Below are positions 9,661-58,598 of a stretch of DNA of 62,712 bases, one piece after another (the stretch's first letter is position 1; each line of letters begins with the position of its first letter). The position numbers and the translations under genes were made by a program. Under the pieces are notes generated by a model. The model had not been told where the DNA came from and searched no databases. It saw only the letters and a list, made by a program, of their open reading frames with translations. Source of the DNA: a virus; the IMG/VR virus record IMGVR_UViG_3300047477_000098, positions 1 through 62,712 of that record; one strand, given 5' to 3'.

Positions 9661-10758
9661 ATGGATGGCATAAATCTTGTTTGCAATTTTACAGGTGATT
9701 TTGGACTTGGGGTATACTCAAGAATCATCGCTAAACTGATTAGGAGAAAAAATATACCTCTTAATATAATGAATCTACCTCTTCCTGGTAGAGATGCACC
9801 TATTGATGATTATAAAGATTATATTCCTTTCATGTCCAATTCTCCAAGATACGATACTAATCTATTTGTATTTGGAGCAGATTTGGCTAAGATATTACCA
9901 CATATTGCCAATTACGTCAATCTGAATAACAAGTTCAATGTATATATTCCTTTCTGGGAACTATATGAATTTTCTGACGACTTTATACAATTAAAGGATG
10001 TCATGGATGTTTTCATTGCTCCAACAAACTTTATTAAGTATTCAATGATGAGAGTTATGGATAACACTCATATAGAATATCTACCACCGTTTGTTACCAT
10101 TCCACAACAACTTGGGAAGGTGGAAAAGCATAATAGATTTAGATTTTATTATAATTTTGATATAGGAAGTTCTATTAGTCGAAAGAATCCGAACCCACTA
10201 ATAAAGGTATTTGGAGAGACATTTTATAATGACGAGTCTGTAGAACTTGTATTGAAATTATCAAGACCCGCGTCACCAGATCAAAAACAGGAATTGATGA
10301 CACATGGTAACAATACAAACAATATAACCATCCATGATACATTCTTACCTTACAGTAAAAATATAGACTTGGTTAATTCTACAGATTGCTATGTTTCTAC
10401 ACATAGATCCGAAGGATTAGGAATGGGGATGTATGAAGCAATGCTTCTAAAGAAGCCAGTTATCGCCACTGCATTTGGTGGTAATGTTGATTTCATGGAC
10501 AATAGCTGCTCCATCATGGTTCCTTATACAAAGGTTCCTGTAGAATGTCCATTATATAAAAGTATTTGTAATAAGACAGATACTTGGGCTGAAATCAATC
10601 AGGATGAATTGAAAAAATCTATGATGCTTATTAGATCCAATAACTCCATGAGAAATGTTCTTGGTAAGAATGGATATGATAAAGTAAAAGAAATTGAAAA
10701 GCAATTCTGGAACACAAATGTCTTCGAGAGTATAAGGAAAATTCAGAGTAGAAAATGA
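9661..10758 (+). CDS. GT4-family glycosyltransferase
   Basis: 365 residues with a GT-B fold pattern. The N-terminus carries a glycine-rich donor-site loop (NFTGDFGLGVYSR) and the C-terminal half the GT4 signature STHRSEGLGMGMYEAM followed by KKPVIATAFGG, where the EGxGMxxxE glutamates contact the nucleotide sugar. It opens a block of seven co-directional sugar genes whose starts and stops nearly all overlap. The acceptor (phage DNA, virion protein or host surface) cannot be told from sequence. Confidence 0.85.
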   Translation: MDGINLVCNFTGDFGLGVYSRIIAKLIRRKNIPLNIMNLPLPGRDAPIDDYKDYIPFMSNSPRYDTNLFVFGADLAKILPHIANYVNLNNKFNVYIPFWELYEFSDDFIQLKDVMDVFIAPTNFIKYSMMRVMDNTHIEYLPPFVTIPQQLGKVEKHNRFRFYYNFDIGSSISRKNPNPLIKVFGETFYNDESVELVLKLSRPASPDQKQELMTHGNNTNNITIHDTFLPYSKNIDLVNSTDCYVSTHRSEGLGMGMYEAMLLKKPVIATAFGGNVDFMDNSCSIMVPYTKVPVECPLYKSICNKTDTWAEINQDELKKSMMLIRSNNSMRNVLGKNGYDKVKEIEKQFWNTNVFESIRKIQSRK

Positions 10759-11426
10759 TTAATTTACCAAATGTTACATTAGTAAATATCACATCGGTCA
10801 AACATGAACAAAATATTAAATCTTTGGTTCAATCAAAGAAGCATATAAAGTTCGGAAGTGTTAAATTTATTTCCGATATTAAACCGGATTACCTTCCTTC
10901 AGACATAGAATATTGTAAGTGTGACAAATTAGACTCACTGTCATTCGCACATTTTGCTTGGTATGATTGGTGGAAATATATAGATACTGAACTCTGCTTA
11001 TTTGTTCACCATGATGGTTTTGTACTAAATCCAAAACTATGGTCAGATGATTTTCTAAAATTTGATTGGGTTGGTGCTCCTTGGCCGAATCATTCTGGAT
11101 ATCATAATAAGGGTAGATATATACCTGTTGGTAATGGTGGATTTGCGATAAGAAGCAGAAAAATTCTTAAAGCTCCTACTGATCTGAATTTACCATTACT
11201 AGATAATTGTGGGTTTGGATTTCCACACGAAGATATGAATTACTGCAATTACCATTATGATGCTATGATTGAATATGGCATCAAATATGCAGATATTGAT
11301 ACCGCTGCAAGATTTGCTACAGAGATGTATGTTGATGGACATTCGCAAAATTCTTTCGGGTTCCATGACTTTAGATACTATCCGCAGTTTGAAAAAATAT
11401 TAGATGATATAGACTTGAGAGGATAA
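10755..11426 (+). CDS. DUF5672-type glycosyltransferase
   Basis: 223 residues, ATGA-coupled to the upstream glycosyltransferase. The run LCLFVHHDGF, DWVGAPWP, PVGNGGFAIRSRK and FPHEDMNY is the arrangement seen in DUF5672 proteins, GT-A-like enzymes with a DxD-equivalent HHDG. Part of the sugar block; likely adds a residue to the same glycan as its neighbours. Confidence 0.7.
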   Translation: MINLPNVTLVNITSVKHEQNIKSLVQSKKHIKFGSVKFISDIKPDYLPSDIEYCKCDKLDSLSFAHFAWYDWWKYIDTELCLFVHHDGFVLNPKLWSDDFLKFDWVGAPWPNHSGYHNKGRYIPVGNGGFAIRSRKILKAPTDLNLPLLDNCGFGFPHEDMNYCNYHYDAMIEYGIKYADIDTAARFATEMYVDGHSQNSFGFHDFRYYPQFEKILDDIDLRG

Positions 11427-11427
11427 A

Positions 11428-12630
11428 ATGTATATAGTGAAAGAATTGACAGAATGTAAATGTTGCGGATCTAAAAATCTTATCAAGTACTGTGACCTAA
11501 GAAAGCAACCATTAGCTAACTCATTACATGATAAAACTGTACATCTTGAGAAATATGATTTGGCTGTAAATGTATGCTCGAATTGTTTCCACTCTCAGTT
11601 ATCGGTGACAGTTAATCCTGAAATCATTTACAAACACTATCTTTATGTGTCGGGTGTATCTAAGCCATTCATTCAGCACTGTAAAGAACTTGTTTCTAAT
11701 GTTACAAATGTCCATGGTGGAAAAGAACTATCAGTTTTAGATATTGCTTGTAATGATGGAACAATGTTAGAAGAATTCCGAAATGCTGGACATAAAGTAT
11801 TTGGAGTTGATCCTGCCGAGAATATTAGACAGATGTCAATTGAAAAGGGAATTGATGTTGAAGTCGCTTTCTGGAGCAATGATGTTGCAGAAACATTAGG
11901 AAAGACATTTGATGTCATAACAGCTACTAATGTATTTGCTCACGTGGATGATAACTACTCCTTCCTGGAAGCTTGTAAGAAAGTCTTAAATCCTAATGGG
12001 TTGGTAGTCATTGAATTTCCTTATGCCAAAGATATGATTGCTAAGGTTGAGTTTGATACAATCTACCATGAACATATTTCTTACTTCACTGTAAGCTCTT
12101 TCAATGCTCTTGTGACCAGACTAGGATATAAGATCCATAACATACAGAGAACTAATATTCATGGAGGGTCAATCAGATTCTCAATCTCTCTTGACAGAGA
12201 AGAGACAAATGATGTCAGTCTTTTAATGAATGAAGAAGAGAAGTCAAAACTGTATGATGTTGATGCATATAAGTCATTCCAAACACAGATGATTGAAACC
12301 AAGAAAGATATTGAAACTTATCTAAATGGTAAAGAATATATTGGGTTTGGAGCTTCCGCCAAAGGTAACACAATGCTTAACTATTTCAATCTAACCAATA
12401 TGAAATATGTTGTCGATGATACCAAGATCAAGCAAGGGAAATATACACCAGGCTGTGATATTGAAGTGAGACCTGTTAATGAAGGTCTTGATGTTGATGG
12501 TGACCTATATGTTGTTTGTATGTGCTGGAACTTTAAGGATGAAGTTATTCGTAGAATTAAATCAATCCGAAGTGAAGGAAGAACCCATCTTATATTTTAT
12601 GTGCCCAACTTCTATGTGGAACTTATATGA
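11428..12630 (+). CDS. Nucleotide-sugar C-methyltransferase (TylC3/NovU type)
   Basis: 400 residues with the three-part design of sugar C-methyltransferases: an N-terminal zinc ribbon (ECKCCGSKN, later VCSNCFHSQL), a SAM-binding Rossmann domain (LDIACNDGTML around residues 104-114, then VFGVDPAE), and a C-terminal extension including YIGFGASAKGNTMLNY. The conserved IYHEHISYF stretch holds the His-Glu-His associated with catalysis. Such enzymes make branched deoxysugars from dTDP-4-keto sugars, so this phage likely builds an unusual sugar itself. Its stop overlaps the next ATG. Confidence 0.85.
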   Translation: MYIVKELTECKCCGSKNLIKYCDLRKQPLANSLHDKTVHLEKYDLAVNVCSNCFHSQLSVTVNPEIIYKHYLYVSGVSKPFIQHCKELVSNVTNVHGGKELSVLDIACNDGTMLEEFRNAGHKVFGVDPAENIRQMSIEKGIDVEVAFWSNDVAETLGKTFDVITATNVFAHVDDNYSFLEACKKVLNPNGLVVIEFPYAKDMIAKVEFDTIYHEHISYFTVSSFNALVTRLGYKIHNIQRTNIHGGSIRFSISLDREETNDVSLLMNEEEKSKLYDVDAYKSFQTQMIETKKDIETYLNGKEYIGFGASAKGNTMLNYFNLTNMKYVVDDTKIKQGKYTPGCDIEVRPVNEGLDVDGDLYVVCMCWNFKDEVIRRIKSIRSEGRTHLIFYVPNFYVELI

Positions 12631-25992: not shown

Positions 25993-26805
25993 ATGGCTAC
26001 TTTTAAAGAATACTTGACGGACAATGTCCACTACGAATCCCTTATTGAAACTGTTGCAGTTGAGGACCTTGAAGTTCTTGCTGAGGGTCTTGCTGAAATT
26101 GAGACTGAACTTAATGAGTTCTTGGGTCTTGGTAAGGCTGCTAAGTTTCTAAAGGATCGCGCAGAAAAGAAAGCTGTCGACAATCAGGGTAAAGCTTACG
26201 ATAAGGAACGCTCCGCCAATGAGAAGGCTGCTAAACTGAAGAAAGAACAGGAAGAGAAGGCAGCTAAAGAGAAGGCTGATAGAGAAGCTAAGGCTGATAA
26301 GTCCAAGGCATCTAAGGATGCTAAGACTGAAGACAAGAAAGAAATGGCTGATCGCCTGAGCAAGATGTCCGCATCTGCTGATAAGAAAGTCACTGCTGCT
26401 AAGGACGCCGTCGTTTCTGCCGCAAAGGACAAGGTTGTTACTGCAGCCGTTGGTGCAAAAATGGCAGCTAAAGACATCAGCGATAAGAAGGATGCTATTA
26501 AGGATTCTTTCTTAAAGGTTTCTGATGAAGCAAAAACCATCTTTAAGAAGTTCTTCAAGGATACTAAGAATGTATCTGAAGATCAGAAGAAGACCCTTGG
26601 CGAAGTTGAAGTCATCTTCACAAAGCTAACTGAAGGAAAGACTGTCTCTGGTGTAGAAGCTATCAAGATTCTCGCAACCGTTCTTGCCGGATCTCCAGAA
26701 GCTAATACTGTCCCAGGATTCAAGGCTTACACAAAGCAGCTTGAAAGACTTCGCGCACTTCCAGGAATCTCTTCCTACAAGTTCAGCGTAAAAGTTAACG
26801 CCTAA
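25993..26805 (+). CDS. Candidate internal head protein (Lys/Ala-rich coiled coil)
   Basis: 270 residues, very rich in Ala, Lys, Asp and Glu, with long coiled-coil stretches (residues about 50-180). The leader MATFKEYL resembles the T4 capsid-targeting start MKTYQEFI, and (L/I)xE sites follow: LIE/T (17-20), LAE/G (29-32), LAE/I (33-36), LNE/F (40-43). The C-terminal 80 residues look folded. Codons are C/G-biased as in gp32, suggesting abundance. A late-type box precedes it and a strong terminator follows. Function is inferred; no family is recognised. Confidence 0.62.
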   Translation: MATFKEYLTDNVHYESLIETVAVEDLEVLAEGLAEIETELNEFLGLGKAAKFLKDRAEKKAVDNQGKAYDKERSANEKAAKLKKEQEEKAAKEKADREAKADKSKASKDAKTEDKKEMADRLSKMSASADKKVTAAKDAVVSAAKDKVVTAAVGAKMAAKDISDKKDAIKDSFLKVSDEAKTIFKKFFKDTKNVSEDQKKTLGEVEVIFTKLTEGKTVSGVEAIKILATVLAGSPEANTVPGFKAYTKQLERLRALPGISSYKFSVKVNA

Positions 26806-26857: not shown

Positions 26858-26865
26858 AATAAATA
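26858..26865 (+). promoter_or_regulatory. Late-type box AATAAATA overlapping a start
   Basis: The box overlaps ATG 26865 by one base. If real, translation would have to begin at ATG 26871. The spacing is unlike most other boxes, so it is tentative. Confidence 0.3.
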
Positions 26866-28238
26866 TGTATATGAATGAAACCTTCCTTTTCGCCGAAGAA
26901 TTACTTAATGAGATGGCTATTTCCAATGATAGGTTTTCTAACAACGATCTAGCTTCAGCATACGCTAAAGCTTATCCTGATAGACTCCGAGGTGGAACTT
27001 CACAGAACTTATATGGTCTGTCAAGAGACGCCATCATAGATGCCATAAAAGATGCTGCAAAAGATTTTGAACCATACAAGATTGCATCTGCAAGACATGC
27101 TGATGAAGATGAGCTTTTGAGCTTGGCTATCAGAGCTATCAATGATCCTAAGTTTGTTCCTATTAAGGGTGAAGCTGATCCTGCAGATAGTCAACAAGAC
27201 CAAGGTGGAAAGGGTGAAGAGGAAGTCGCGAATGATATTCCTAAGAACAAATGGCCGTCGTATAAAGCATTTCGTATAAAATGGTATAGAGAAACTGTAC
27301 AACTTGGATGGCCGGCAGACATCCTTCCTCCAATAAAGAAGCCAGTGAAAATTGGCAATATTATAACTTTCTGGAAAGAGGACGATCATACTGCTTATGC
27401 GTTCAGCAGAAATGGAATTGGAAGAGCTTCACCATTCACAAACTATACAAAGAAAATAAAGGATGCCCTTTATGGTGAATTTGAACATGATGTTAGAGGA
27501 CTGAAGCTTCTTTATGAGCAGGTAAATAGTATTGTTGAATTAGAGAAGCAGTATTTCCATGGAAGGTTGCTTCCAAATATTGCTGGATTCTTAGTTAAAC
27601 AAGCATTCAAAGGTATGGGTGCATCTGAAGTTGCTGACAATGCTTTTGTAAACTTCCTACTTTCCAAGATTAAAGGAATGACTGTTTTTGAATATCAACA
27701 GATGATATTGCGAGAGATGGTTACTAAGATGGATCTTAATGATACAACACTTAGGGATCTTAAAGGCATATTGTCTCCTTTGAGAAATCTGTGCATTAGA
27801 AAACTTCCTCTTTATAACAGCACCAAGATATCTGCAGAGTTTAGACCTGGTAAACCAGGTGAAAGACCAGATGGTTATGTGTGTAGTTTTAGAGTTGTAC
27901 AGAGAAAGAAAGATACTCATGTATTCCCTGGTGATGCTATGTACGACACCCATAGAGAAATAATTGGACCTATGAGTGAAGGCAAACTATCGGATGAAGA
28001 TTTTGAGATTTTCCCACCAATCGAAGATGTTAAAAAGAATATGGCTAGGTTGGAAAAGCTCAAAGCTGATAAGAATCACACTGAGCGAGAGATTCTAAAT
28101 GCTCTCAAACCAATGAAGTTTGGAACTAAGAAAATAGTCGGCAATGATGAAAAAGGAATGTATTATATTACCTTCAATTTCATAACTCATTCCTGCAAGA
28201 TAGATGTTATATATGAACCAAAGGTGACACCAAGATGA
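26865..28238 (+). CDS. Hypothetical protein, candidate internal virion protein
   Basis: 457 residues, no recognised domain. Leader MYMNETFLFAEELLNEM has LNE/M at 14-17. An acidic low-complexity spacer (ADPADSQQDQGGKGEEEVAND, about residues 105-125) separates a short N-terminal part from a large C-terminal part that includes SAEFRPGKPGERPDGYVCSF. ATG 26865 has only GGA nearby; ATG 26871 is an alternative. It is followed by an ATGA-coupled small gene of the same class. Confidence 0.55.
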   Translation: MYMNETFLFAEELLNEMAISNDRFSNNDLASAYAKAYPDRLRGGTSQNLYGLSRDAIIDAIKDAAKDFEPYKIASARHADEDELLSLAIRAINDPKFVPIKGEADPADSQQDQGGKGEEEVANDIPKNKWPSYKAFRIKWYRETVQLGWPADILPPIKKPVKIGNIITFWKEDDHTAYAFSRNGIGRASPFTNYTKKIKDALYGEFEHDVRGLKLLYEQVNSIVELEKQYFHGRLLPNIAGFLVKQAFKGMGASEVADNAFVNFLLSKIKGMTVFEYQQMILREMVTKMDLNDTTLRDLKGILSPLRNLCIRKLPLYNSTKISAEFRPGKPGERPDGYVCSFRVVQRKKDTHVFPGDAMYDTHREIIGPMSEGKLSDEDFEIFPPIEDVKKNMARLEKLKADKNHTEREILNALKPMKFGTKKIVGNDEKGMYYITFNFITHSCKIDVIYEPKVTPR

Positions 28239-28525: not shown

Positions 28526-29380
28526 ATGGAAAGCTATCTAAAATTGTTAAGAAAGATTCTCTCCGAAGGTGTAGAGAAAGATAATCGAACTGGGATAAAA
28601 ACAAAGTCTATATCTGGTCATATGTTTGAACATGATATGTCTACAGGATTCCCACTTCTAACCACAAAGTTTGTTTCGCTTAAAACTGTTGCAGTCGAAC
28701 TCGAAGGCTTCATCAAAGGCATCACTTCTAAGAAATGGTTCCAAGATAGAAAATGTCGCATCTGGGATGACTGGTGTAACCCCCAAGTAGTTCCTTACGG
28801 AAATGATGAAGAAACTAAATCCAAGATGAAAGCCGAAGATGACCTAGGTTTAATTTATGGTAATCAATGGAGAGACTTTAGAGATCCTGATAACTCAGAG
28901 CCCGGTGATGGTCTTGACCAATTGAAAATTATAGTGAACCGATTAAAGACTAACCCTACAGATAGAAGAATGATCTGTATGGCTTGGAATCCTTTAGCAC
29001 TAGACTACCAAGCATTACCTCCGTGCCATTATAGCTGGCAAGTCTTATCAGATGGTAACACGCTAGACCTTCTATGGAGCCAGCGCAGTTGTGACGTCCC
29101 ACTCGGAATTCCGTACAACATAGCCTCTTATGCTCTCCTATTAAAGCTTCTGGCTAAAGAAGTCAATATGAAAGAAGGTAAGTTGGTAGGTTTTCTAGCT
29201 GACTGTCAGATCTACCAGAACCAAAATGATGGAGTTACTGAACAGCTCACAAGAACTCCATTAGAACTGTGTCAGGTTGATATTCCCAATTTCAAATCTA
29301 TATATGATTGGGAATCTACTGATCTTGAGACAAAGGATTATAAACATCACGGTAAGATTAGTATGCCAATAGCTGTATGA
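28526..29380 (+). CDS. thyA: Thymidylate synthase
   Basis: 284 residues. Makes dTMP from dUMP using methylene-tetrahydrofolate. The catalytic cysteine C167 is in QALPPCHYSWQ; other landmarks are EKDNRTGIKTKSISG, FPLLTTKFVSLK, LIYGNQWRDF, WSQRSCDVPLGIPYNIASYA and the DCQIYQNQ segment. Works with the DHFR gene 1.5 kb downstream, as in T4 td-frd. No intron is seen, unlike T4 td. A sigma70-like promoter lies just upstream. Confidence 0.96.
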   Translation: MESYLKLLRKILSEGVEKDNRTGIKTKSISGHMFEHDMSTGFPLLTTKFVSLKTVAVELEGFIKGITSKKWFQDRKCRIWDDWCNPQVVPYGNDEETKSKMKAEDDLGLIYGNQWRDFRDPDNSEPGDGLDQLKIIVNRLKTNPTDRRMICMAWNPLALDYQALPPCHYSWQVLSDGNTLDLLWSQRSCDVPLGIPYNIASYALLLKLLAKEVNMKEGKLVGFLADCQIYQNQNDGVTEQLTRTPLELCQVDIPNFKSIYDWESTDLETKDYKHHGKISMPIAV

Positions 29381-29664
29381 ATGATAGACAAATTATAAAT
29401 GTCAAGTTTGGTTATTATACTTACTTGAAACTTGTTTGTGAAGATGCTGGATATGTTGCAGCATCTTCACAGATTCAAAAAGAATTGGATGATGAGCTAA
29501 TACAAAGGATGTGCGATGCTGCCAAAGTTTACGATAAGTGTGACACCAATAACAACAAAGACCAGAAAACTGACTTCTGTGGACGACCGATCAACGATAT
29601 ATGTTCGGCTCTTATCAAACACGCAGGGAAGTATTCTCCGCTGCCGCCGTCCATTCACCTTTGA
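29377..29664 (+). CDS. Hypothetical protein, possibly frameshifted
   Basis: 95 residues, ATGA-coupled to thyA. No family recognised. The frame ends in PSIHL, but an overlapping +1 frame continues with natural-looking codons (PFTFESRPPLVAAMGTDVQQ, then MMEALMEELKV) to 29749, so the true product may be longer. Confidence 0.5.
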   Translation: MNDRQIINVKFGYYTYLKLVCEDAGYVAASSQIQKELDDELIQRMCDAAKVYDKCDTNNNKDQKTDFCGRPINDICSALIKHAGKYSPLPPSIHL

Positions 29665-29765
29665 AAGTAGACCACCTTTGGTAGCTGCAATGGGAACTGA
29701 TGTACAGCAATTGATGATGGAAGCTCTTATGGAAGAATTAAAAGTTTGAAAGTTACAGATAGAAC

Positions 29766-30110
29766 TTGAGAACAATAATAGCCGGCAGTAGAGTAATAAC
29801 AGAAATTGGTGTAGTCTCTGCAGCAATACAGATGTCCAAAATAGAAATAACAACTGTCATATGTGGATGTGCACCAGGTGTAGATACTCTTGGTGCCGAA
29901 TACGCAAACCTAAATAGTATTGCAGTTGAATATTATCCAGCAGATTGGGACACATTTGGTAAATCTGCTGGATATAAACGCAATGAACAAATGGCAGAAA
30001 ATGCAGAAGCACTTATTGCCATTTGGGATGGAACGAGTAAAGGAACAAAACATATGATAAACATAGCCAAGAGAAAGGGTCTGCAGGTTAAAGTGTGGAT
30101 ATATGAGTGA
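29766..30110 (+). CDS. YspA-like SLOG-family protein (cpYpsA-related, DUF2493)
   Basis: 114 residues starting at TTG 29766. The pattern MRTIIAGSR, then VICGCAPGVDTLGAEYA, YPADWDTFGKSAGYKRNEQM and EALIAIWDGTSKGTKHMI is that of the YspA/DUF2493 members of the SLOG superfamily, Rossmann-like proteins that bind nucleotide-type ligands. Possible roles include sensing or processing a nucleotide messenger; the exact ligand is unknown. No strong ribosome-binding site is visible. Confidence 0.8.
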   Translation: MRTIIAGSRVITEIGVVSAAIQMSKIEITTVICGCAPGVDTLGAEYANLNSIAVEYYPADWDTFGKSAGYKRNEQMAENAEALIAIWDGTSKGTKHMINIAKRKGLQVKVWIYE

Positions 30111-30351
30111 TAGGAAAGCGGTAGTTGTATCTTTAGTCTGGGGTAAGAAACGTAGTTATCTGAAACGATCTGATAACTACAGTGCCTTTGGAAATTATGC
30201 AATGCCTCTGGTCAGAAGAATGTTTCCGGAGTTACTTGCAACTAAAGTTGTAGGAGTTCAGCCTATGACAGCACCTATGGGATTAGCTTACAATGAACCG
30301 GATAGAAGGAAAAAAGGATTCGAGGTTAGATGTGTTTCTGAATTTGAATAA
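30103..30351 (+). CDS. Small protein carrying a gp23 major-capsid segment (Gol-like)
   Basis: 82 residues, overlapping the upstream gene by 8 nt. Residues about 35-63, PLVRRMFPELLATKVVGVQP then MTAPMGLAY, closely match the conserved N-terminal region of T4-type major capsid protein gp23 (T4: MVRRAIPNLIAFDICGVQPM). In T4 this segment contains the Gol peptide that triggers the host Lit protease. The rest (basic N-terminus, DRRKKGFEVRC C-terminus) is unrelated. No capsid gene lies nearby, so this is a captured capsid fragment in a small separate gene. Function unknown; a decoy or assembly modulator is speculation. Confidence 0.7.
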   Translation: MSDRKAVVVSLVWGKKRSYLKRSDNYSAFGNYAMPLVRRMFPELLATKVVGVQPMTAPMGLAYNEPDRRKKGFEVRCVSEFE

Positions 30352-30547
30352 CGGACAGGTCAATTGGTCTCAAGGATATTATAAATGGCAGTCATCTGCT
30401 TGTTCAAACTTACAGAAGTTTCACAATCCTCTGAATGGACTTAATAAGATACCAGATAGATTGGTGATTGAGTTTGATTTGATTACCATTCCAAAGAAGC
30501 GTAAACCTATGAGAATAATGAAAGGTAGAAGATGGGCCCAGCGATAA
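30293..30547 (+). CDS. Small hypothetical protein
   Basis: 84 residues from ATG 30293, overlapping the gp23-like gene by 59 nt; later in-frame GTG or TTG codons could be the real start. Aromatic-rich centre (VNWSQGYYKWQSSAC) and basic tail (IPKKRKPMRIMKGRRW). No family recognised. Confidence 0.5.
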   Translation: MNRIEGKKDSRLDVFLNLNNGQVNWSQGYYKWQSSACSNLQKFHNPLNGLNKIPDRLVIEFDLITIPKKRKPMRIMKGRRWAQR

Positions 30548-30717
30548 TATACATGCCGTATCTGCCTCTATTTGTTCAAAAAACACTTGGTTCAGGTTCC
30601 GATAGAACTATGGTATGTGTTAAGTTTGGATCAGAAATATTGCACATTGATCTTGACTCACAGATTATAAAATTCAAATCGAATAGGACATACGGGAATC
30701 CATGGAAGAGAAAATGA
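30532..30717 (+). CDS. Small hypothetical protein
   Basis: 61 residues, overlapping its neighbour by 16 nt. It may form a small beta-sheet (MVCVKFGSEILHIDLDSQII). No family recognised; kept because it fits an unbroken chain of overlapping starts and stops. Confidence 0.5.
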   Translation: MGPAIIYMPYLPLFVQKTLGSGSDRTMVCVKFGSEILHIDLDSQIIKFKSNRTYGNPWKRK

Positions 30718-30872
30718 GAGAATATGTTAAGAAGTATCAGATCAAGAATCTGAGATATTCTACGGACAGAACTAATATAAGAATATTGCTAGGTGATGAT
30801 GTGTTGGAATGTACAGAATCTAAACACCTATTCTTAAACCTAAGTTTTGATTTCACTGGGAGATGGAAATGA
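30714..30872 (+). CDS. Very small hypothetical protein
   Basis: 52 residues (MREYVKKYQIKNLRYSTD ... FTGRWK), ATGA-coupled on both sides: its ATG overlaps the upstream stop and its stop overlaps the DHFR ATG. The perfect coupling argues that it is real. No family recognised. Confidence 0.55.
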   Translation: MREYVKKYQIKNLRYSTDRTNIRILLGDDVLECTESKHLFLNLSFDFTGRWK

Positions 30873-31360
30873 TAGGATTGATTGCTGCTGTTGCCAAGAA
30901 TAATGTTATCGGTGGAAACAATAACATACCGTGGAGTTGTCCAAATGATTTGCAATTCTTCAAAAGGATAACAACTGGTTCGAATGTGATCATGGGTAGA
31001 AAGACTTTCGATTCTTTAGGAAGACCTCTACCAAATAGAACTAACATAGTGATCTCCAGAAGTGAACCTGACGAATGTCCAGCAAATGTTTTGTACGCCT
31101 ATTCGTTAGAAAATGCTCTTGAGATTATTAGTTTACTTTCTAACTATAGGGATGCATGGATAATTGGAGGCTCTCAGATTTACAAGGAAGCTTTGACACA
31201 AGAACTCCCAGACAAAATATTAATATCCAGAATGAATTTTGAAGCTGATGGTGATGTTCTCTTTCCTGAGATACCATCAAGTTATCATGTAACTGACATT
31301 ATGAACATTGATCCAGAGTTCTCTGTTTATAGATATGATCGGTTGCACACGCAAAAGTAA
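30869..31360 (+). CDS. frd: Dihydrofolate reductase
   Basis: 163 residues from ATG 30869, coupled to the previous stop by ATGA and preceded by GGGAGATGG. Restores tetrahydrofolate for thymidylate synthase. Landmarks: IGLIAAVAKNNVIGGNNNIP, WSCPNDLQFFKRITTG (the acidic substrate residue D), VIMGRKTFDSLGRPLPNR and WIIGGSQIYKEAL (NADPH site). Confidence 0.94.
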   Translation: MIGLIAAVAKNNVIGGNNNIPWSCPNDLQFFKRITTGSNVIMGRKTFDSLGRPLPNRTNIVISRSEPDECPANVLYAYSLENALEIISLLSNYRDAWIIGGSQIYKEALTQELPDKILISRMNFEADGDVLFPEIPSSYHVTDIMNIDPEFSVYRYDRLHTQK

Positions 31361-31378: not shown

Positions 31379-31897
31379 ATGAGAACACTAATGGATAATA
31401 ACACTCTGGTCATCGAACCAGAAAAACACGGCTTCACAAAAGAAGCTGTAGTAATTACAGCTAAGGGTAAACGATCAATTCAAGATGTCCAAAGAGGTGA
31501 CTTTGTGTTGACTCACAAAAACCGCTTTAAGAAGGTCTACAAGACTTCTAAGGACATCAACACGACTACAGTTCATACCATTCGCGCAGTCGGCTTAGAA
31601 CCCCTCCAAACGACAGCTGGACAGATGTTCTTGACCAAGAAGTCTATTGTGGATTCTCCAGCTTGGGTTGAAGCTAGAAATATTGAAACTGATTGGTATA
31701 TCGGTGTGCCTGATAAGGTTGACTTTGAATTAGTTGATCCGAAAGCTTACATCGACCAAATGATTTGGATTAAAGTTAAGTATAGTAAAGGATCTGATAA
31801 GAATCATTCTACAACTTATACTTTATCTGTTGAAGATGATGAATCCTTTATAGTCAATTGCTATCCAGCATTTACGGAGGACACATGGAAGAAATAA
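31379..31897 (+). CDS. Free-standing Hint (intein-like) domain without catalytic residues
   Basis: 172 residues that follow intein block order. Block A-like: GFTKEAVVITAKGKRSIQDV then QRGDFVLT; expected Cys1 is Gly. Block B-like: LQTTAGQMFLTKK; the usual TxxH His is Gly. Block F-like: YTLSVEDDESFIVN; block G-like CYPAFTED lacks the terminal His-Asn and +1 nucleophile. So the fold seems kept while splicing and cleavage residues are gone. It overlaps the methyltransferase start by 13 nt, implying a joint role or an intein remnant. ATG 31391 is an alternative start. Confidence 0.65.
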   Translation: MRTLMDNNTLVIEPEKHGFTKEAVVITAKGKRSIQDVQRGDFVLTHKNRFKKVYKTSKDINTTTVHTIRAVGLEPLQTTAGQMFLTKKSIVDSPAWVEARNIETDWYIGVPDKVDFELVDPKAYIDQMIWIKVKYSKGSDKNHSTTYTLSVEDDESFIVNCYPAFTEDTWKK

Positions 31898-33279
31898 AGT
31901 TTTGGCAAGCACCTACTATGGCAGATGTTCATGAGGGTGAAGAAAAGAATCTATTTACCCATGTGTCATTATTCGCTGGTCTTGGTGGTTCATCGACAGG
32001 CATGAGACTTGCTGGTGCACACACTCTTGGGATTTCAGAATTTATTGATTATAGAAATGACATCTATGGTAGAAATTATCCTAAGTGTCAAATCTGGAAT
32101 GAAGATATTCGTGAACTCTCTGGTGATGAGATTCTCCGACGCATTGGATTGAAGAAAGGCGAACTTGACCTTTTAGATGGATCTCCTCCTTGTTCTGATT
32201 TCTCTACCAATAATATGGGCAAGAGAGAGAAGCAATGGGGTAATGAGAAGAAGTATTCCAATAAGCGCCAAAGAGTTGATGACCTGTTTTATGAGTTCGC
32301 AAGAGTTCTAAAGGAAGTCCAACCAAAAGTCTTTGTTGCTGAGAATGTGAAAGGATTAACGGTAGGTAATGCTAAAACTATTTTGGGAGATCGAAGCAAA
32401 AGTCTTTCATCACTCATGGATATTGAGGAAGAAGATGAAGTATCAGATCTTACCAAGTTTAATGGAAAAGATGAAACGATTGTTGAAACCCTAAGAGCGT
32501 GTGGTTATAAGGTATCTTACCAAGTAATGAACTGTGCTCATTATGGTATACCTCAAATCAGAGAGCGTCTCATTTTCATCGGCATTCGTAATGATCTTCC
32601 TTACTCTCCAAGTTTTCCAAAACCATTTACAAAGACCAAGCAGATAATTGGAAAAGATGCTATTGGAAACTTCTTGTTTAACGGTGGTAATGTTGTTCTA
32701 AATCCTGAGACGATGACCTATAGGTATGTTAAGGAATACTTCCCTCCACATACAACTAAACTACAAGTCCTAAACAAAATGAAGGATGAGAAGTTTGGAA
32801 CTTATGCTCATCGCTACCACAGAGATAATTGGGATAAAGTCTTTTACACCATAGTTGCACAAGACGGAAACAATGTCATCCACTCTTTGGTTGATAGATA
32901 TTTCTCAGTCTGTGAGGCTAAGAAGATTCAAGGCTTTCCAGATGATTTCAATGATGGTCTCCCTCCTTTCAAGAGAATAAAGGTATCTGCAAGTGATTTA
33001 ATCAATCCAGATTTTTATTCAAAACTTAACTACAAATGGAAAGACCAAGGTCATGCTTGTGGTGATGTTAAGAATCTCATTGAACTCGGAAGATGGAAAT
33101 GGGATGATATGAAAGATCAGAAGATATTCGACTTAGATTTGGAAACTGAATATGATAAGACTCAAAAATATCTACACAGTTCTAAGTCGTGGGAGAATCT
33201 TGGAAGAGCTGTCCCGCCACTGCTTTATAAAGCAGTTGGGGAACACATCTATGAGAATGTCCTTAAACATCTGAAGTAA
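31885..33279 (+). CDS. DNA (cytosine-5) methyltransferase
   Basis: 464 residues from ATG 31885, with GGAGG at 31876-31880. Motif I is SLFAGLGGSSTGM, motif IV is DGSPPCSDFS with the catalytic Cys, motif VI is VFVAENVKGL, motif VIII is QIRERLIFIGIR, and later IQGFPDDF and GRAVPPLLYKAVGEHI match motifs IX-X. An insert between motifs VI and VIII (LGDRSKSLSSLMDIEEEDE) is longer than usual. Likely protects phage DNA from restriction; the target sequence is unknown. A Hint-like gene is coupled directly upstream. Confidence 0.93.
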   Translation: MEEIKFWQAPTMADVHEGEEKNLFTHVSLFAGLGGSSTGMRLAGAHTLGISEFIDYRNDIYGRNYPKCQIWNEDIRELSGDEILRRIGLKKGELDLLDGSPPCSDFSTNNMGKREKQWGNEKKYSNKRQRVDDLFYEFARVLKEVQPKVFVAENVKGLTVGNAKTILGDRSKSLSSLMDIEEEDEVSDLTKFNGKDETIVETLRACGYKVSYQVMNCAHYGIPQIRERLIFIGIRNDLPYSPSFPKPFTKTKQIIGKDAIGNFLFNGGNVVLNPETMTYRYVKEYFPPHTTKLQVLNKMKDEKFGTYAHRYHRDNWDKVFYTIVAQDGNNVIHSLVDRYFSVCEAKKIQGFPDDFNDGLPPFKRIKVSASDLINPDFYSKLNYKWKDQGHACGDVKNLIELGRWKWDDMKDQKIFDLDLETEYDKTQKYLHSSKSWENLGRAVPPLLYKAVGEHIYENVLKHLK

Positions 33280-57521: not shown

Positions 57522-57609
57522 GGTACTTTAGAAAGTAAATTATAACGATTGATACTTTGACTCGACTCAAACTTGAAGTCGGATCAGAAGTGTCTCAAAT
57601 GACAAACAA

Positions 57610-57640
57610 AGCTACGAAAATTGATTCGTAGCTCTTTTGA
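57610..57640 (+). terminator. Rho-independent terminator
   Basis: AGCTACGA (57610-57617) pairs with TCGTAGCT (57626-57633), followed by CTTTTG. The 135-bp gap 57522-57656 also has the TGTCTCAAA element and no gene. Confidence 0.7.
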
Positions 57641-57656
57641 TTTTAGGAAGGAATAT

Positions 57657-58598
57657 ATGCAGAGCGAAGTTTTATTCAAATCAATATTTGGATCACATCT
57701 CTATGGGACAAATGTTCCTACATCTGATAAGGATTACAAACAAATACATAAGTGTTCTGTTAAAGATATACTTCTGGGAAAAGACCAGATGAATATAACT
57801 AACAACACCAATAAGAAAGAAAAGAATACTGCAGATGATATTGACTTTGAATCAAAAGAACTTAGACAGTTTATAAAAGATTGTCTTGGTGGTCAGACAT
57901 ATGCTTTAGACCTTCTCTTCACACCAGAGAGCTTGTACATACAGACATCTAAAACATGGGATGAAATACTTACCTATAGGAATCGTTTGGTTACTAATAA
58001 CCTAATGCCTTTCATGGGCTACGTGAAGTCGCAGGCGTATAAGTATTCTAAGAAAGGCGCAACGCTATCTGATATAGAAACAGTATTACAGCTTTTTAAG
58101 AAGAAGGCTTTTAAATCTGCAAGGTTGCAAGATACCCTTACTCAAAGTGATTTGGTGGGATTGACATCTGTTAAGATAAACAACAAGTGGAACAAGTCTA
58201 CCAAAATGAATGAGGATTATCTCGTTGTCGGAACTTCTGAATATCCTATGGGTAGACAAGTTGCTGATGTTGAGAAGTCTGTTCAGAGTAAGTATGATGA
58301 GTATGGTGAACGTGCAAAGATGGCTCAGGATATGGATGGTGTTGACTTGAAAGCATTCTACCATGCATATAGAATATGTTGGGAACTTGAAGAGCTTTTA
58401 ACTGAGCACAAGATAACATTTCCTTCAAAGAATGTTGGATTTCTTAGGGAAGTCCGTGCTGGAAAGTATAAGAAGGACTATCTGGAAAGCTTTCTTACTG
58501 AAGAGATAGAAAGAGTTACAGAACTCCCGAACTTTTTGAATGAACCAAACTATGAGTTTTGGGATGAATGGTTGATACATGAATATCTCGGATGTTGA
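57657..58598 (+). CDS. RlaP-like nucleotidyltransferase
   Basis: 313 residues from ATG 57657, with AGGAAGGA upstream; the TTG at 57621 lies inside the terminator. FKSIFGSHLYGTNVPTSDKD is the polymerase-beta-type GS...D.D active site as in RNA-repair RlaP proteins and T4 homologues. Adds a nucleotide or modifies RNA ends; consistent with the other RNA-repair-type genes here. Confidence 0.82.
   Translation: MQSEVLFKSIFGSHLYGTNVPTSDKDYKQIHKCSVKDILLGKDQMNITNNTNKKEKNTADDIDFESKELRQFIKDCLGGQTYALDLLFTPESLYIQTSKTWDEILTYRNRLVTNNLMPFMGYVKSQAYKYSKKGATLSDIETVLQLFKKKAFKSARLQDTLTQSDLVGLTSVKINNKWNKSTKMNEDYLVVGTSEYPMGRQVADVEKSVQSKYDEYGERAKMAQDMDGVDLKAFYHAYRICWELEELLTEHKITFPSKNVGFLREVRAGKYKKDYLESFLTEEIERVTELPNFLNEPNYEFWDEWLIHEYLGC

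Follow-up and report, generated by a model that had tools for sequence, protein, structure and literature searches.

A small gene with a gp23 Gol segment between the thymidylate synthase and dihydrofolate reductase genes of a T4-type phage

Small genes of the TS-DHFR operon

The window, that is the whole stretch of 62,712 nucleotides analysed here, is a genome fragment of a T4-type phage, taken from IMG/VR. From their translations and, in part, from family or similarity searches, we take its genes to include those for DNA polymerase, UvsX, helicase, single-strand binding protein, primase, ribonucleotide reductase, thymidylate synthase (TS), dihydrofolate reductase (DHFR) and clamp loader. The features of the TS-DHFR operon are collected in Table 1.

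Table 1. Features of the TS-DHFR operon (window coordinates)
Feature	Position	Strand	Evidence and remarks
Thymidylate synthase, operon context	28526..29380	+	relatives 52-63% identical
ORF 29377, 95 aa, possible gp23 spine-helix segment at residues 29-80	29377..29664	+	gp23 profiles, Pfam, codon score
SLOG-family (YAcAr, PHROG 289) protein, directly upstream, overlaps ORF1 start	29766..30110	+	PF10686 E 1.4e-8; PHROG 289 E 7.5e-30
ORF1, 82 aa	30103..30351	+	ATG 30103, stop 30349-30351; residues 23-63 = gp23 N-terminal (Gol) segment
Gol-like core of ORF1, SDNYSAFGNYAMPLVRRMFPELLATKVVGVQPMTAPMGLAY	30169..30291	+	residues 23-63; profile alignment, own-gp23 alignment
ORF2, 84 aa, no assigned family	30293..30547	+	59-base overlap with ORF1; codon score 0.09
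ORF3, 61 aa, residues 4-21 like C-terminal PY.PL strand of gp23	30532..30717	+	gp23 profiles
ORF4, 56 aa, probable tandem paralogue of ORF3	30702..30872	+	1/500 shuffles as good
Dihydrofolate reductase, operon context	30863..31360	+	Pfam DHFR_1 E 2.9e-43

The ATG of ORF1 overlaps the stop codon of the upstream SLOG gene, and its codon score, per codon, is 0.178 in its own frame, whereas the two others give -0.07 and -0.06; the in-frame value falls among those of known genes (5% quantile 0.146). Because of this gene-like codon usage and of the start/stop overlap with its neighbour, ORF1 is a real, if small, gene; it is neither a capsid gene nor a capsid subunit. The start of ORF 29377 likewise overlaps the stop of the TS gene, and its codon score is 0.214. 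Scores of ORF2, ORF3 and ORF4 lie at 0.09-0.11, and their status as genes is less certain. ORF2 matched no Pfam or PHROG family and gave no signal with gp23 profiles. PADLOC returned no defence-system match for ORF1 or the surrounding small ORFs. ORF3 and ORF4 (30532-30872) share the pattern YxxxxxxKxL..S.DRT......G...L, equalled in one of 500 shuffles.

Two other regions near the operon deserve mention. Downstream of the DHFR gene, a stand-alone Hint/intein-like protein (31379-31897) directly precedes a C5-cytosine methyltransferase (31858-33279), and PHROG 36001 unites both parts in one chain. Since the usual first Cys of inteins seems replaced (GFTKEAVVITAKG), it looks like an intein turned into a separate gene. 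Upstream of TS, a 457-aa protein (26865-28238) matching neither Pfam nor PHROG adjoins a 270-aa protein (25993-26805); both have apparent counterparts, in the same gene order, in a related record (L006).

Relation of ORF1 to gp23 and to the phage's own capsid gene

Pfam Gp23 (PF07068) matches ORF1 with 33.2 bits (E 4.8e-8), above its curated cut-off of 24.4, and PHROG 138 (major head protein) does so with E 7.1e-8. In hmmsearch, two custom gp23 profiles, based on 22 and 102 full-length sequences, gave p ~1e-18, a value equalled by none of 8817 background non-gp23 ORFs of similar size. By tblastn, ORF1 has matches in 2054 phage records (best E 4e-5), and those listed are almost all capsid genes. 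Finally, in phmmer residues 28-62 match solved T4 gp23 chains with no gaps and 15 of 35 positions identical; their counterpart, T4 gp23 90-124, takes in the 29-residue Gol region. The positions shared with the conserved ones of T4-type gp23 are VRR, P, L, A and GVQPM..P.G.

The likeness is confined to residues 23-63, the flanks being unrelated or diverged beyond recognition, and it covers only profile positions 4-38 of the 376 in PF07068. Immediately after GLAY ORF1 departs from gp23, and the following strand (IFALR..Y) is missing. Compared with T4 gp23, to which it is alike without gaps over the Gol region, ORF1 thus lacks the rest of the HK97-fold (~350 residues): its 82 aa contrast with the about 380-660 aa of a full chain and with the 379-670 aa of complete related gp23 genes. 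Moreover, it lies between the SLOG and DHFR genes and not in a head operon (gp20-gp21-gp22-gp23). The AlphaFold model of ORF1 is poor (pLDDT 54), its sole confident part being helix 25-48, with values of ~81 at 31-40. Homology being shown by the sequence comparisons, the core of ORF1 appears to be of ancient origin, descended from the Gol segment near the N-terminus of a major capsid protein of gp23 type.

A sequence-only reading had already described this 82-residue ORF as a small separate gene that carries the Gol segment of gp23 in an early-type region. Its position and length were correct, the gp23-family searches, solved T4 chains included, bear out the likeness, and gene-like codons and the TS-DHFR context agree with the rest. 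The extent proposed then, residues 35-63, is real and proves slightly wider. Of the further checks suggested with it, structure prediction gave the confident helix within an overall poor model, and alignment with the phage's own capsid gene gave 51% identity at the protein level, as detailed below.

The same reading had noted that no capsid gene lies near, and indeed no full gp23 was found within the window. A second record (L106) comes from the same phage (100% identity over 6 kb) and reaches 17 kb further upstream, with genes that are presumably gp20, gp21 and the start of gp22. A third (L196) shares 667 identical bases with the second and contains the phage's own gp23 at 10601-11890 (429 aa, E 1.1e-85), which follows gp20-22 on the linked contigs. 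Adding up the contig overlaps places it ~47 kb upstream of ORF1. Beside the head genes, at L106 8761-9957, we noticed by eye a 398-aa ORF whose product resembles a TnpB/OrfB-type transposon protein.

ORF1 is 51% identical to residues 63-103 of the phage's own gp23 over 41 residues (LVRR.FP.L.A.KV.GVQ...P.GLAY), and no DNA similarity between the two could be aligned. Therefore, as far as sequence comparison goes, ORF1 was derived long ago and does not represent a recent duplicate of the phage's own capsid gene. Where ORF1 retains the family-typical GVQPM, the own gp23 has GVQAL; the latter protein is the sole one without PM among the collected gp23s with a readable motif, most of which were fetched by the GVQPM pattern, so that the count of PM is no estimate of its frequency. 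On the predicted structure of the own gp23, the ORF1 segment corresponds to two short helices together with the beginning of the E-loop strand (72-80, 85-89, 101-109).

Further gp23-like pieces may lie close by. When all 1631 stop-to-stop ORFs of the window were scanned with the gp23 profile, the top three were ORF1, ORF 29377 (E 0.006-0.012) and ORF3 (E 0.08-0.11). The three share one strand and a stretch of 1.3 kb, and this placement by itself would have a chance of ~3e-4. For ORF 29377 the custom profiles gave p 3e-6 to 6e-6, equalled by none of the 8817 background ORFs, and the same segment was hit by Pfam Gp23, a model independent of these profiles, with E 0.17 among 24736 models. ORF3 gave p 6e-5, equalled by 0 and 1 of the 8817 background ORFs, and its top tblastn matches among the compared loci were gp23 C-termini. 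On the predicted own gp23, these segments correspond to the long helix 226-256 and to the strand 374-388, respectively. Since tblastn of ORF 29377, ORF2 and ORF3 against all phage records gave nothing significant, the claims for ORF 29377 and ORF3 derive from profile scores and position: they are suggestive of a gp23 spine-helix segment in the former, and a C-terminal strand segment is possible in the latter.

We also considered a single gp23 gene frameshifted into ORF1-ORF2-ORF3, and an A6 run does exist in the overlap. This was rejected as the main reading: ORF2 has no gp23 profile signal, ORF1 codons are gene-like up to its own stop, and the pieces follow one another in a permuted order, different from that in gp23, which speaks against mere decay of a gp23 gene. 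A K.R.L motif seen by eye at the end of ORF2 was supported neither by tblastn among the compared loci nor by gp23 profiles. Separately, a short frame at 29690-29749, AMGTDVQQLMMEALMEELKV, weakly resembles the gp23 stretch HG.DAEAEL..IL..EI (E 4.5), a stretch that is reused in ORF451 of phage XacN1.

The Gol segment in small genes of other phages

No ORF1 ortholog was found in phage records by its own sequence, or via the upstream SLOG gene or the TS gene; the syntenic relative L006 ends inside its TS gene. A Gol profile scan of viral contigs gave none either, every complete ORF among the matches listed being a full-length gp23.

The segment itself does occur elsewhere. In whole-record Pfam Gp23 scans of 22 GenBank T4-type genomes and more than 40 IMG/VR records, extra short gp23 pieces outside gp23/gp24 were present in three GenBank genomes, X1, Aeh1 and XacN1 (a 302-aa gp23/24-like frame of KVP40 was left out of the count), and none was detected in T4, RB49, S-PM2, P-SSM2 and others. 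In Xanthomonas phage X1, the piece is a 72-aa gene (57562-57780; Pfam score 21.8, just below cut-off) between two 'endonuclease' genes, which we read as gp47 and gp46. Like ORF1, this is a Gol segment standing alone, much the same in size and part of an early operon, but its neighbourhood is another one and little likeness extends beyond the segment. In XacN1, two non-capsid genes of one phage carry gp23 pieces, as ORF1 does: the Gol module forms the C-terminus of ORF261, which with 261 aa is far longer than ORF1, whereas ORF451 (74 aa) carries a different, middle segment of gp23.

The case of Aeh1 leads to a whole family. Its 140-aa gene, located in a tRNA cluster and annotated 'similar to T4 gp23' (Aeh1p187), belongs to PHROG 12830 together with Merlin284, D479_0385 and ZPAH1_317, and has tblastn relatives in 39 records, mostly of Aeromonas, Vibrio, Citrobacter and Cronobacter phages. 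Members are small non-capsid genes with a Gol core (LIA..I.GVQPM-like), as is ORF1, but they bear a 60-residue N-domain (MS.P..ALF..NG....INCGW) with the module as C-terminal tail, whereas in ORF1 this domain is absent and the module is followed by 19 residues. Merlin284 and Aeh1p187 match the family over 1-128; ORF1 matches only at 93-124 of 128 and is not a member. Among four diverged members, the 18-residue Gol core shows 52% mean pairwise identity, against 42% for the N-domain and 19% for linker and tail. Being the best conserved part, the Gol core is, judging from this comparison, under selection, and nothing else supports a functional reuse of the module as strongly as this conservation.

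These Gol-bearing small genes sit in early, accessory or tRNA-cluster positions, apart from head genes. Merlin284 lies between AsiA and a MotA-like gene, in an early block that also holds an annotated McrBC inhibitor, a place that suits a host- or defence-directed role. By these comparisons, ORF1 is one of several small proteins, scattered among T4-type phages, in which Gol is reused on its own or as a C-terminal tail. We found no study of small gp23-like genes in the literature.

Possible roles of ORF1

In T4, the 29-residue Gol stretch suffices to bind EF-Tu domains II/III, with a preference for the GDP form, and Gol bound to EF-Tu makes it a substrate for Lit (PMC3014915). Gol is also the most conserved region of gp23, and binding of host EF-Tu has been proposed as general (PMC3014915). 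Capsid proteins can trigger defences directly, as do the SECPhi27 capsid with CapRel-SJ46 and Gol with Lit (PMC9712102). Because ORF1 would be a small early protein that carries the Gol segment, it is best read as a ligand of the same partner as Gol. We tentatively propose that this early-region, non-capsid gene encodes a Gol mimic acting as a peptide ligand, most likely of EF-Tu, as competitor or takeover factor, a reading that we prefer while stopping short of calling it probable. The helix-strand core would bind the partners of the Gol segment in the capsid protein itself, of which EF-Tu (domains II and III) is the best known. Acting before capsid protein is made, ORF1 could then compete with new gp23 or redirect EF-Tu, and the outcome may be either host takeover or a weakening of defences that sense the complex of gp23 with EF-Tu. 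Early expression of ORF1, EF-Tu as its partner and competition as its effect are what we infer. To our knowledge, EF-Tu binding is known for T4 gp23 only.

The sequence-only reading had suggested a copy that titrates Lit or other capsid sensors, or acts in assembly. Plain titration of Lit is not credible because free Gol activates it: the T4 Gol peptide is an activator (PMC3014915), and an early, wild-type-like Gol would trip Lit unless it bound EF-Tu without supporting cleavage. A host- or defence-directed role in general suits the presence of the same segment in other small non-structural genes, such as Merlin284 in its early block. A non-activating competitor or an EF-Tu takeover factor would be credible, and the reuse of Gol in small non-capsid genes points to an overlooked host- or defence-directed capsid mimic.

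A decoy that titrates a capsid-recognising defence, for example Lit or a CapRel-like sensor, has in its favour that capsid proteins are direct triggers (PMC9712102), that Merlin284 neighbours the annotated McrBC inhibitor, and that ORF1 keeps GVQPM where the own gp23 has an altered core. We nevertheless consider it quite unlikely, since free Gol with EF-Tu activates Lit (PMC3014915) and a faithful copy would trigger the defence it should quench; it would have to be a non-activating binder. Still more doubtful, and the reading to which we give least credit, is a cluster of capsid mimics, in which the small genes of the TS-DHFR operon would carry different gp23 pieces (spine helix in ORF 29377, Gol in ORF1, C-terminal strand in ORF3) as early non-activating mimics that block immune sensors or factors recognising new capsid protein. 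If true, capsid-segment mimicry would be a general counter-defence strategy of T4-type phages.

Two other readings were considered. The segment could mimic the part of gp23 that contacts capsid subunits, scaffold or folding chaperone, so that ORF1 tunes or delays head assembly or carries cargo into the prohead, the PHROG 12830 module being a head-targeting tail. The mimicked piece is indeed a capsid piece (helix and E-loop strand start in the predicted own gp23), in both XacN1 ORF261 and the Aeh1p187 family Gol forms the tail at the C-terminus, and the neighbours ORF 29377 and ORF3 may mimic more of gp23. However, the genes lie in early, replication, accessory or tRNA regions and not in head operons, and at the GVQPM core the own gp23 has moved away from ORF1 instead of matching it, which leaves a role in assembly possible but rather unlikely. 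Alternatively, illegitimate recombination may have scattered gp23 pieces, the small ORFs persisting by chance without function, as several such pieces in permuted order within 1.3 kb, the different kinds of pieces in XacN1 and the failure to find an ORF1 ortholog might suggest. Yet the ORF1 frame is open throughout and has gene-like codons, within an operon of closely packed genes, debris diverged to 51% protein identity and no DNA identity would be expected to have lost its frame, and the module is the best conserved part of PHROG 12830 across Aeromonas, Vibrio and Citrobacter phages; we thus judge debris unlikely. The preferred reading remains that of a Gol-partner ligand.

Capsid proteins are triggers for bacterial phage sensing, of which the Gol segment is the oldest known example. 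The recurrent, putatively early small proteins built on Gol would allow direct tests of whether phages make capsid mimics that blind or hijack such sensing, and of whether EF-Tu binding explains why Gol is so deeply conserved.

Such genes are hidden by the annotation 'major head protein', which files them as capsid despite their insufficient length and their location in early or accessory regions. PHROG 12830 genes in OZ195776.1, NC_005260 and NC_028857 owe this misleading label solely to their Gol-like tail.
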